Positions 19,029 to 23,106 of a DNA stretch of 64,000 nucleotides are shown here, one piece after another (position 1 is the first letter of the stretch; each line of letters opens with the position of its first letter). Position numbers and translations under genes: made by a program. Location: NCBI RefSeq assembly GCF_937910895.1, contig NZ_CALEMI010000040.1, positions 1 to 64,000 of the forward strand. The letters are read 5' to 3'. The notes under the pieces were generated by a model, which was given only the letters and a program-made list of their open reading frames with translations, did no database searches and had not been told where the DNA came from. The DNA is from an uncultured Dokdonia sp. (GTDB lineage: Bacteria; Bacteroidota; Bacteroidia; Flavobacteriales; Flavobacteriaceae).

Positions 19029-19164
19029 TACTTTTAAAATACATGATAATACTCGATACTATTCTCGATAACATTTAATGAGACTCCCGCCAGAGTTTAT
19101 TCAGAGTGTCACACTGAGCTTGTCGAAGTGCGATAATTGAAGAGCGGGAATGAAAATTAGAATT

Positions 19165-20439
19165 ATGAAAAAACACATATTCCCACTACTCCTACTAATG
19201 GTAGGAACTACATTTGCACAAACCAGTTTTGACGCAGACATTGAAGCTGTCAAAGATAAAGTCATTGAATGGCGTCGTGATTTTCACGAAAATCCTGAAT
19301 TGGGAAATCGCGAATTCAAAACCGCAGAGAAAATTGCTAATCATCTTCGTTCTTTAGGCATCGAAGTCCAAACAGGGGTTGCCAAAACAGGGGTTGTCGG
19401 CATTCTAAAAGGAAACAAACCTGGAAAAGTCATCGCCCTTCGTGCCGATATTGATGCGCTTCCGGTGACGGAACGTAATGACTTATCTTTCAAATCAGAA
19501 GTAAAAACCACATTTCTAGGTGCAGAAACAGGTGTGATGCACGCTTGTGGGCATGATACACATACGGCTATTTTAATGGGCGTTGCAGAAGTTCTTGCCA
19601 AGAACAAAGATAAAATCAACGGAACGGTAAAATTCATTTTCCAACCCTCTGAAGAAGGTCCACCACCGGGAGAAGAAGGTGGTGCTAAGTTGATGGTGAA
19701 AGAAGGGGTACTGGAAAACCCTAAAGTAGATGCCATCTTCGGATTGCATATTAATAGTGGTACACCCGTCAATACGATCCGTTACAAACCTGGCGGAACG
19801 ATGGCAGCCACAGAGCGTTTTGTGGTGAATGTTAAAGGAAAACAAACCCATGGGAGTCAGCCGTGGTCTGGGGTGGATCCGATTTATATTTCGGCGAAAA
19901 TCATTGATGGGTTTCAGAGTATTATTTCGAGAGAAAGTAAATTAACCGACGAAGCTGCGGTAATTACCATTGGAAAAATCACATCTGGGCTACGTTTTAA
20001 CATCATTCCTGAAAGCGCAGAGCTGATTGGTACCGTGCGCACATTAGATCCTGATATGCGAACTAAAATCATCAGACGTATGAACGAAATGGCACGAGAC
20101 ATCGCCAAAGCGTACGGAGGCGAAGCCACCATCGAATGGCAAAATATGACAGTGGTAACTTTCAATGATCTTGATCTGACTGCACAAATGCTTCCAACCC
20201 TTCAAAAGGTAGGCGGTACTGAAAATATTCAATTACAGAAAGCCGTAACAGGCGGAGAAGATTTCTCCTTTTTTCAAGAAAAAGTGCCTGGTTTCTATTT
20301 CTTCTTAGGGGGAATGACACCAGGAAATACAGAAGTATTTCCGCATCACACCCCCGATTTCTTTATCGACGAATCTGGCTTCCAATTAGGTGTCAAAGCG
20401 TTAAGTCAGATGAGTATTGATTATTTGAATGGGAAATAA
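19165..20439 (+). CDS. Exported M20 amidohydrolase (hippurate hydrolase/N-acyl amino acid type), paralogue 1
   Basis: 424 aa from ATG 19165, which begins the signal peptide KKHIFPLLLLMVGTTFAQ; the track start adds five residues. M20D motifs: ADIDALPV, HACGHDTHTAILMG (metal-binding Cys and His), FQPSEEGPPPGEEGG (Glu pair), FGLHINSG, and the final HHTPDFFIDE. The enzyme removes acyl groups from amino acids or related amides; exported location suggests scavenging of amides from outside. It is closely similar to the protein at 21367, so this is a tandem duplication with a DUF4287 gene between. The 3' end is partly repeated downstream with hairpins (20456-20680). Confidence 0.92.
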   Translation: MKKHIFPLLLLMVGTTFAQTSFDADIEAVKDKVIEWRRDFHENPELGNREFKTAEKIANHLRSLGIEVQTGVAKTGVVGILKGNKPGKVIALRADIDALPVTERNDLSFKSEVKTTFLGAETGVMHACGHDTHTAILMGVAEVLAKNKDKINGTVKFIFQPSEEGPPPGEEGGAKLMVKEGVLENPKVDAIFGLHINSGTPVNTIRYKPGGTMAATERFVVNVKGKQTHGSQPWSGVDPIYISAKIIDGFQSIISRESKLTDEAAVITIGKITSGLRFNIIPESAELIGTVRTLDPDMRTKIIRRMNEMARDIAKAYGGEATIEWQNMTVVTFNDLDLTAQMLPTLQKVGGTENIQLQKAVTGGEDFSFFQEKVPGFYFFLGGMTPGNTEVFPHHTPDFFIDESGFQLGVKALSQMSIDYLNGK

Positions 20440-20457: not shown

Positions 20458-20516
20458 GGGTGGTTGTTTTCTATTTTTTATAATTTGCGTAGCATAAAAA
20501 ATAGAAAACTTTCCGT
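20458..20516 (+). repeat. Hairpin element A (GGGTGGTTG ... CTTTCCGT)
   Basis: Fixed left flank GGGTGGTTG, then a perfect 15-bp stem (20467-20481 with 20494-20508) around the loop AATTTGCGTAGC, then fixed right flank CTTTCCGT. The same flanks with other stem sequences occur at 20581, 22653 and 22769. Confidence 0.85.
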
Positions 20517-20525
20517 GCCACTCTT

Positions 20526-20680
20526 GTCGCCAAATGTCAATAGACTACTTGAATGGGAAGTAAGTTGTTCCTTTTGGAGCGGGTGGTTGTTTTATAAATT
20601 GCGTAATTTATAAAACTTTCCGTACCACTTCTGCTACCAGATGCGTATTGATTATTAGAATGAAAATACTATTTTAAAAT
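20526..20680 (+). repeat. Tandem partial duplications of the amidohydrolase-1 3' end with hairpin B
   Basis: TCAATAGACTACTTGAATGG (20538-) and TATTGATTATTAGAATGAAA (20645-) are diverged copies of the gene's last codons (TATTGATTATTTGAATGGGA). The first copy is followed by TTTTGGAGC and hairpin B: GGGTGGTTG (20581-20589), perfect 11-bp stem TTTTATAAATT/AATTTATAAAA around GCGT, then CTTTCCGT (20616-20623). So the unit [gene end + hairpin] is repeated in tandem. Confidence 0.8.
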
Positions 20681-21366: not shown

Positions 21367-22641
21367 ATGAAATATACAAAAGCACTCCTTTTAAGTGGGA
21401 TGATTCTTGTGTCCGCTTTCGCGAAAGCGCAATCATTAGAAAAAGAAATTAAGGCAGTAGAATCTAAAGTCATTGAGTGGCGTAGGGATTTTCACCAAAA
21501 TCCAGAACTAGGAAATCGCGAATTCAAAACCGCCGAAAAAATCGCAGCGCACTTAAAATCCTTAGGGATTGAGGTGCAAACAGGTGTTGCCAAAACAGGC
21601 GTCGTAGGAATCTTAAAAGGAAAACGTGACGGAAAAGTAGTCGCTTTGCGTGCCGATATTGACGCATTACCTGTCGAAGAACGTGTGGACTTACCCTTTA
21701 AATCAACCGCTAAAGGAACGTATCGCGGGAATGAAGTGCCTGTGATGCATGCCTGCGGTCACGACACACATATTGCTATTTTAATGGGCGTTGCCGAAGT
21801 ACTCGCAAAAAACAACGACTTTGCAGGAACGGTCAAGTTTATCTTCCAACCTGCCGAAGAGGGAGCACCTCCGGGAGAAGAAGGTGGCGCCGAACTCATG
21901 GTGAAAGAAGGGGTGCTGAAAAACCCTGATGTCGACGCTATTTTTGGATTACACATCGGTGCAGGACAAGACATTGGTACAATTGCGTATAAAGCTGGCG
22001 GAATTATGGCGGCTTCTCAAAGTTTTGAAATCAACGTCAAAGGAAAACAAAGTCACGGTTCGACCCCGTGGACGAGTATCGATCCCATTATGGCATCTGT
22101 CAAAATCATAGACGGACTCCAAACAATTATTTCACGAGAATCCCCACTGACGCAAGAAGCAGCGGTACTTTCGATAGGAAAAATCAATGCGGGTGTGCGT
22201 AGTAATATCATTCCTGAAAGCGCACAAATTATAGGAACGCTCCGTACGCTAGATTATGATATGCAAGCCATGATCAACAAACGTATGCAAGAAATGGTCC
22301 CTGCGATTGCAGCGGCATATCGCGCCGAGGCGACCGTTGATATTTCAAAAGGCTATCCTATTACCTATAACCATTTGGATCTCACAGCACAAATGCTTCC
22401 GTCGATGGAAAAAGCCGCTGGAAAAGAGAATGTAAAACTCATCAAAGCCATTACGGGCGCTGAGGATTTCTCATTCTTTCAGAAAGAAGTGCCTGGAGTA
22501 TATTTCTTCTTAGGTGGTAAAACACCCGGAGATACCAACGCAGCACCGCACCATACTCCTGATTTCTACATTGACGAAAGCGGATTGTTATTAGGTGTGA
22601 AGACGTTTGTGCAAATGACGACGGATTATCTTGGAAGTTAA
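21367..22641 (+). CDS. Exported M20 amidohydrolase, paralogue 2
   Basis: 424 aa, closely similar to the 19165 protein. The signal peptide (LLLSGMILVSAFAKAQ) contains AFAKA from a full GCTTTCGCGAAAGC palindrome (21415-21428), unlike paralogue 1. M20D motifs: ADIDALPVEE, HACGHDTHIAILMG, FQPAEEGAPPGEEGG, FGLHIGAG, HHTPDFYIDE. Same predicted reaction (N-acyl amino acid deacylation) with possible differences in substrate. Its last 36 bases are exactly duplicated at 22720-22755 with hairpins between, a pattern shared with paralogue 1 but not identical in sequence. Confidence 0.92.
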   Translation: MKYTKALLLSGMILVSAFAKAQSLEKEIKAVESKVIEWRRDFHQNPELGNREFKTAEKIAAHLKSLGIEVQTGVAKTGVVGILKGKRDGKVVALRADIDALPVEERVDLPFKSTAKGTYRGNEVPVMHACGHDTHIAILMGVAEVLAKNNDFAGTVKFIFQPAEEGAPPGEEGGAELMVKEGVLKNPDVDAIFGLHIGAGQDIGTIAYKAGGIMAASQSFEINVKGKQSHGSTPWTSIDPIMASVKIIDGLQTIISRESPLTQEAAVLSIGKINAGVRSNIIPESAQIIGTLRTLDYDMQAMINKRMQEMVPAIAAAYRAEATVDISKGYPITYNHLDLTAQMLPSMEKAAGKENVKLIKAITGAEDFSFFQKEVPGVYFFLGGKTPGDTNAAPHHTPDFYIDESGLLLGVKTFVQMTTDYLGS

Positions 22642-22652
22642 AAGTGGTGAAA

Positions 22653-22710
22653 GGGTGGTTGTTTAATAAATTGCGTAATTTTTCTTTACGTAATTTATTA
22701 AACTTTCCGT
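22653..22710 (+). repeat. Hairpin element C
   Basis: GGGTGGTTG (22653-22661), a 17-bp stem with one G-U (22662-22678 with 22686-22702) around TTTTTCT, then CTTTCCGT (22703-22710). Same fixed flanks as elements A, B and D. Confidence 0.85.
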
Positions 22711-22719
22711 TTCTATTTA

Positions 22720-22755
22720 GTTTGTGCAAATGACGACGGATTATCTTGGAAGTTA
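22720..22755 (+). repeat. Exact 36-bp copy of the amidohydrolase-2 3' end
   Basis: Identical to 22605-22640, the last 36 coding bases up to two bases of the stop codon. It is followed by GGTGAAAGGGTGGTTG, as after the real gene end, so the repeat unit is about 115 bp. A shorter third copy (GCAAATGACGACGGATTATC) lies at about 22844-22863, and a decayed fourth around 22990-23012. Confidence 0.9.
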
Positions 22756-22768
22756 GTATCTGGTGAAA

Positions 22769-22827
22769 GGGTGGTTGTTATTGCTTTTTTGTAAAATGCG
22801 GAGCATAAAAAAGGAATAACTTTCCGT
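22769..22827 (+). repeat. Hairpin element D
   Basis: GGGTGGTTG (22769-22777), a 15-bp stem with two non-Watson-Crick positions (22778-22792 with 22805-22819) around AAAATGCGGAGC, then CTTTCCGT (22820-22827). The loop resembles that of element A. Confidence 0.8.
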
Positions 22828-23059
22828 TTATATCCTTGTGAATGCAAATGACGACGGATTATCTAGGTAACTAAATGTGGTGAAAGGTTTTTAAAGAAGA
22901 AAAAACAGTTCTCGACTGCGCTCGAACGGACAATGATTATCAATTCATAGTGTTGGAAAATAAAATAATTAAAGTTTTCCATTTCTATTTCTTTGTATAA
23001 ATGATGACGTGATTTCGATACACTCGACTTGCTGCGAAGTTGGCAATCAACTATAATTT

Positions 23060-23106
23060 AAATACATCACAAAATCACACGTTATTATTTTGTGGTGTAT
23101 TTTTAA
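23060..23106 (+). terminator. Terminator-like hairpin upstream of the DUF2339 gene
   Basis: AAATACATCACAAAAT pairs with ATTTTGTGGTGTATTT (one G-U), followed by TT. It probably ends transcripts from the amidohydrolase side. The rest of 22830-23284 holds decayed repeat text (GAACGGAC, CACTCGACTTG). Confidence 0.6.

Follow-up and report, generated by a model that had tools for sequence, protein, structure and literature searches.

Why should the last codons of a peptidase gene recur several times directly behind that gene, with a hairpin between one copy and the next? This question is raised by two neighboring genes in the window, by which we mean the whole 64,000-nucleotide stretch of an uncultured Dokdonia sp. 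contig analysed here. A first-pass annotation had proposed either a process that repeatedly copies a gene end together with its hairpin, or a mobile palindrome that targets such ends. Our results support this proposal in outline, as the same arrangement is present at at least 31 distinct gene ends in several genera and has a precise junction. From a comparison of species, one genome each, we infer that the hairpins have probably moved. We give a probability of about 0.5 to the reading that they are a DNA-level element family that settles directly behind genes, each addition duplicating the gene end.

Repeated ends of two M20 peptidase genes

The two genes had been labeled amidohydrolases; more exactly, both ORFs (gene 1, 19150..20439, and gene 2, 21367..22641, both on the + strand, as are the gene-end copies, hairpins and motifs given below for them) encode M20-family peptidases (Pfam PF01546). 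Behind gene 1, the last codons QMSIDYLNGK* (20407-20439) are followed by hairpin A (20458..20516), composed of GGGTGGTT, a 16-bp stem with a TGCGTAGC loop, and TTTCCGT. A displaced end comes next (20531..20563), again QMSIDYLNGK* with exclusively synonymous differences (Ser AGT to TCA), then hairpin B (20581..20623), shortened to a 12-bp stem with a GCGT loop, and finally a decayed third copy, QMRIDY* (20638..20669). Behind gene 2, the coding end QMTTDYLGS* (22605-22641) is followed by hairpin C (22653..22710), a second copy (22720..22755) that starts 11 nt past the TTTCC of this hairpin, hairpin D (22769..22827), a third copy encoding an older end, ...LGN* (22843..22874), a degenerate third hairpin that had been overlooked (about 22881..22985), and a decayed fourth copy (about 22992..23013). 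The 36-bp repeat reported between 22605-22640 and 22720-22755 is exact and maximal; 300 shuffles of 22501-23100 produced repeats of at most 12 bp. The shortened and decayed copies described near 22844 and 22990 were likewise recovered, so that identity to the live end reads 36/36, 28/32 and 19/22 going outward.

Hairpins A to D do share the flanks GGGTGGTT...TTTCCGT, and they score 77.7, 50, 67.3 and 70.4 bits, respectively, with the family covariance model, A and D belonging to the 25 sequences that built it. The proposed division into two loop types stands in part: TGCGnAGC is common to A and D and GCGT is the loop of B, whereas in C GCGT tops the stem and the loop is TTTTTCT. Each gene has one hairpin of each type, and the A/B order is indeed opposite to the C/D order. 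Hairpins C and D are unrelated although the two proximal gene-2 ends are identical.

Other palindromes are found in the same places. In the window, the palindromic repeat TTCTCGACTGCGCTCGAA (22905-22940) interrupts the degenerate third hairpin, and palindromes of the CCCGCTGAAAGCGGGATC or TTCCGCGAAGGCGGAA type split hairpins at other loci; several repeat families thus seem to be nested in these gene ends. The palindrome GCTTTCGCGAAAGC (21418-21431) recurs in many intergenic regions and within signal-peptide coding sequence.

A hairpin family behind unrelated genes

The family has a simple anatomy: GTGGTT on the 5' side and TTTCCGT on the 3' side enclose a 16-bp stem, free in sequence, and its loop. 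About 20-35 copies per genome are present in three Dokdonia genomes, namely that of the window (G000), D. pacifica (G002) and Dokdonia sp. 807 (G015), where they lie just 3' of the stop codon of unrelated genes and are co-oriented with them. With the relaxed pattern GTGGTT-N-TTTCCGT these genomes have 22, 27 and 38 matches, some of them by chance, against 7, 3 and 4 in reversed controls; the strict pattern GTGGTTGTT-N-AACTTTCC gives 12, 12 and 19 against 0. Many small-genome Dokdonia have relaxed-pattern matches at control level. True copies also occur in GTDB records of Aequorivita, Ulvibacter and other Flavobacteriaceae, and a covariance-model search found the hairpin in 12 of the 237 genera sampled within this family, with a few copies each in about ten non-Dokdonia genera. 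Viral contigs held no true hairpin, their only two matches being chance ones with unpaired arms. Rfam covariance models gave no gathering-level match in the window and, at ten loci, four weak matches far below the cut-off. A literature search, to which most subscription journals were out of reach, found no description of the element. The first-pass annotation had reasoned that an identical array in all strains, without relatives elsewhere, would mean a one-off slippage product. This is refuted, since the family is widespread and the hairpins, their order and their copy number vary between sister species, some of which are empty.

In 25 diverse hairpins, both-sided changes occur at 14 of the 16 inner pairs, 94% of cells are paired, and stem covariation is far above that of shuffles and slid controls. 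Because two-sided changes exceed one-sided changes by 97 to 3, we suggest that arm complementarity is maintained as DNA rather than through stepwise RNA evolution. The larger hairpin set has 48 G-T wobbles vs 26 A-C mismatches in its stems, a moderate excess that leans toward a role as RNA or as single-stranded top strand and counts against the DNA-level reading. Between loci, stem arms resemble each other more than column composition would predict, with at least 13/16 matches in 13 of 22 (null: mean 3.3, maximum 9), a result that rests on a locus clustering that may be too coarse. An outer stem between linker and tail was convincing at the M20 genes and in genome G010 and weak at others, and hence is not claimed.

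Duplication of the gene end and the junction rule

We compared 250 nt on either side of each hairpin, at a score of at least 40, and found the upstream gene end repeated downstream of 74 of 98 hairpins, as against 0 of 98 when the downstream side was reversed. The first hairpin lies 4-110 nt past the end of the same-strand upstream gene. Copies start mostly 11-18 nt past TTTCC, with a peak at 14-15 nt, and most displaced copies retain the stop codon, or sometimes another stop. No copy is visible at some sites (the tRNA-Gln sites, L017 and L030). The M20 hosts were assigned by Pfam; the other host names rest on reading the sequences, without a family search, and we take these genes to encode a response regulator, a MoxR-like ATPase, a photolyase, a phosphopantetheinyl transferase and a TPM-type membrane protein.

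Could these hairpins simply be ordinary intrinsic terminators, with the copies due to chance or local accident? They follow stop codons, and hairpin C passes a terminator-like scan. As a full account this is refuted, and we give it next to no weight: flanks are invariant and stem length is fixed across the family, gene-end copies stand at 74/98 vs 0 in the control, and the MoxR-like gene has its native terminator elsewhere, beyond the displaced end.

On the gene side, a TGGGG-like motif precedes the junction point by about 10 nt and resembles the hairpin's own GGGTGG foot. At the M20 genes, sequence and motif statistics identify it as TAGGTGTC (20387..20394; junction at about 20407) and TAGGTGTG (22592..22599; junction at 22605). 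Positions -15..-11 contain GG in 25 of the 31 distinct gene ends, where random positions give a mean of 6 and a maximum of 15 (5000 draws). In some arrays the GGGGTGG foot of an existing hairpin serves as the motif, so that the unit resumes within the older hairpin arm. The duplicated coding stretch ranges from about 18 to 174 nt; this spread far exceeds a normal transposase stagger and counts against our main explanation.

A tRNA-Gln (TTG) gene is a shared hairpin site in several genera (L046, L057, L063, L080, L300). Duplication of the tRNA is unclear there except at L080, which has a doubled tRNA 3' end and a second terminator. The linker at these sites often contains the acceptor end of the tRNA as its reverse complement, GTTGGCCCAC. 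At L046 (1560-1960), the tRNA-Gln and one intact hairpin are followed by about nine tandem 45-bp units, GTCCCCCATTTTTCCAACTGTGGTGGTTGGGTTTCAGAACTTTCC, in which GTGGTTG and AACTTTCC are kept and the stem is lost. Short tandem satellites were seen right behind the photolyase gene (CGATAAC units, L022) and right behind the Sfp-like gene (TTGTTGA units, L257).

Probable growth of the arrays and the native end

Among the 32 arrays with room beyond the last hairpin, gene-end copies number hairpins plus one in 23 and plus two or three in 6 more, while 3 break the rule; in 24 of the 32 a copy lies within 60 nt of the last intact hairpin. The gene-proximal copy is the coding end. These counts bear on the idea that host enzymes alone are at work, a replication fork stalling at the hairpin and restarting upstream, by slippage or template switching, to leave a tandem gene end plus hairpin with no dedicated element. 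Hairpins are slippage sites, and near-identical or identical tandem units do exist in D. pacifica (C21) and sp. 807 (C4 and C9); the identical units in C21 and C4 look like ordinary unequal exchange. Slippage predicts, however, as many ends as hairpins, where one more is observed, and adjacent units can pair identical gene ends with unrelated hairpins, as C and D do in the window. It also leaves unexplained why a G-run motif should stand 10 nt ahead of the junction, and why one hairpin family is present at at least 31 unrelated genes. Simple tandem duplication was rejected on the copy count and the hairpin mismatch, and hairpin-provoked slippage we judge unlikely.

Since the gene-2 copies decay outward and copy 3 retains ...LGN*, the arrays suggest that the newest unit would be the one next to the gene, older ends having been pushed outward to decay. 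This ...LGN* is the coding end in D. pacifica and D. sinensis (G003), and the live end in the window is ...LGS*. In the hairpin-free genome G017, the response-regulator gene ends only once, with ...AAAAAACCATTAGATTTTTGTATTTTGC after that end; the matching sequence of D. pacifica and sp. 807 comes after the last, displaced end of the same gene. Judged from such comparisons, the native end at the response-regulator and MoxR-like genes is the downstream, displaced one.

Coding history of the displaced ends

Displaced and live ends differ at 121 synonymous and 53 non-synonymous codons (45 non-redundant pairs, the first two codons of each skipped). The synonymous fraction is thus 0.70, where random placement gives 0.22 and at most 0.32, and neutral decay of the displaced copies is rejected. 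The differences are concentrated on the junction side, away from the stop (14 of 21 pairs), their mean relative position of 0.42 being under all 5000 random draws. The clearest case is the Sfp-like gene of D. sinensis, with many synonymous changes on the junction side and an identical stretch before the last codons. We read this polarity as a probable trace of diverged gene bodies imported later by homologous recombination, with the crossover inside the live end. In Flavobacterium psychrophilum, 72.9% of the SNPs outside recombination tracts are non-synonymous vs about 35% overall, which is the same kind of contrast between imported and mutational SNPs (PMC5808330). Alternatively, selection for synonymous recoding that blocks re-insertion is possible.

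The same data invite another explanation, in which the native end is pushed aside when a foreign gene end, with its hairpin, integrates in the homologous gene; fungal mitochondrial mobile ORFs and the prophages of icd act in this way. The mainly synonymous divergence between the two ends agrees with it, as do the native end found downstream, the similarity that ends at the stop codon at some sites, and the recoded TCA-ATA end of gene 1, which is displaced in the window genome and in sp. 807 and coding in D. pacifica. Yet little or no difference is seen in several copies (L004, L040, L177, L049), the displaced ends of the D. sinensis Sfp-like gene retain species-specific amino acids, and the polar divergence away from the stop is expected from later gene-body exchange. 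We consider such horizontal end-swapping quite unlikely.

Candidate enzymes

A linked RAYT or reverse transcriptase had been suggested as a trace of the machinery; we looked for both, and the suggestion was not supported. D. pacifica and sp. 807, the two hairpin-richest genomes, gave no match to the Y1 transposase (PF01797) and no detectable reverse transcriptase (PF00078), and the TnpB domain (PF07282) is missing from all 18 genomes. All three were rejected as the enzyme on these grounds. Nine Y1 loci were found elsewhere in the genus, none of them with a hairpin, and the fetched reverse transcriptase loci were likewise without one. As a separate observation, the IS200-like Y1 transposase at L194 (C161 of the window genome) is flanked by palindromes of its own, CCCCGAGGCTCTGCCTCGGG, with no relation to the hairpin family.

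The hairpins could be REP-type repeats moved by a RAYT/Y1 HuH transposase, with GTGG as a guide at the hairpin foot. A GTGG at the 5' foot and a junction on the 3' side resemble the geometry of REP and of the IS608 right end (PMC6006769, PMC3733652). Against this stand the lack of Y1 in the two richest genomes, the absence of the hairpin from all nine Y1 loci, and the fact that gene-end duplication is not a described outcome of REP mobility. Present-day activity of this kind is largely refuted, and we hold the explanation to be highly improbable. Retro-copying, in which a hairpin-protected mRNA 3' end would be copied by a reverse transcriptase and put back at a nick in the gene it came from, would fit the 3' boundary fixed about 15 nt after the hairpin, the variable 5' boundary and the strict co-orientation with the gene. 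It meets the lack of a reverse transcriptase in D. pacifica and sp. 807 and the very few G-U intermediates in stems, and is in our opinion very improbable.

Discussion

Returning to a DNA-level element family as our main reading, we propose that each addition would bring a hairpin of about 54 nt together with a short linker and a ~15-nt tail, plus a duplicate of the host gene end. An enzyme would read two signals, one per side, namely the folded hairpin and the G-run, and would join the hairpin tail, ~15 nt past the hairpin foot, to the point in the gene defined by the G-run, the stretch between being duplicated. This joining would take place in single-stranded or cruciform DNA, not in RNA. 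New units would be added beside the gene, and older ends would shift outward and decay as fossils. The live end would then exchange with other alleles by homologous recombination and leave the displaced end behind, which would give the mainly synonymous differences. We advance only tentatively the further idea of a new class of element and enzyme, a hairpin-reading nuclease or recombinase that would insert palindromes behind genes by joining them to G-run-defined coding sites, duplicate the gene end at every insertion and leave a CRISPR-like, time-ordered record of former C-termini, with synonymous recoding of the live end possibly serving as protection from further insertion.

If true, small ORF-less bacterial elements would enter gene ends and yet leave the gene intact, because the end that they displace is duplicated. 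To our knowledge, end displacement has been known only for phages and endonuclease-bearing mitochondrial elements. The offsets (TTTCC+15, GGGG+10), together with a 16-bp hairpin of free sequence, strongly constrain the enzyme and make it searchable. Displaced ends would be fossils of earlier C-termini, from which recombination and codon change could be read in a single genome; they also give false short ORFs and pseudogene tails, and could mislead annotation.

Comparison with known systems

At the defining features tested, membership in the REP/RAYT, TnpB, retroelement and attC systems fails. In REP sequences the palindrome, with a stem of mostly 6-9 bp, is tagged by GT[A/G]G at its 5' foot (PMC3733652, PMC6006769). 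Our hairpins are likewise short palindromes, dispersed outside genes and clustered, and GTGG is invariant at the 5' foot in the alignment, partly through selection by the search pattern. They differ in their 16-bp stem, conserved 3' TTTCCGT, gene-end duplication and lack of Y1 in the richest genomes, and the likeness is in form only. Like integron attC sites, they sit at gene ends, form arrays and preserve their structure, not their sequence. However, attC needs RYYYAAC...GTTRRRY with the crossover in the box, whereas here the triplets run GTT...AAC instead of AAC...GTT, the junction falls outside the hairpin, at a distance of about 15 nt, and the units are gene ends, not genes, so attC was rejected. 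The likeness to CRISPR arrays is in architecture only, with repeats exceeding spacers by one and the newest unit probably beside the fixed end; here the host gene's own end takes the place of the "repeat" and a family hairpin that of the "spacer". The hairpin units may be a new variant among short palindromic bacterial elements, and a categorically new system is possible.

Prophage e14 and phage 21 insert in icd and bring a replacement 3' end, the old end being displaced. Those are large elements with their own integrase at one gene, unlike the tiny units at at least 31 genes described here. In fungal mitochondria, mobile ORFs of ~1 kb that encode LAGLIDADG or GIY-YIG endonucleases carry the C-terminus of atp6 in Allomyces and of atp6, atp9, cox2 and nad3 in Glomus (PMC3630166). 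There too, insertion near the 3' end gives the gene a new coding end and the native end is displaced downstream with largely synonymous differences (PMC3630166), and a displaced native end with synonymous divergence is what we find downstream here. Unlike these ORFs, the hairpin units are bacterial, form arrays and have no ORF; at about 100 nt plus the gene end they are too short for a homing endonuclease, and a nuclease acting in trans remains compatible with them. By analogy, what the hairpin units would most resemble in their working is the end-displacing mobile ORFs of fungal mitochondria, minus the ORF.
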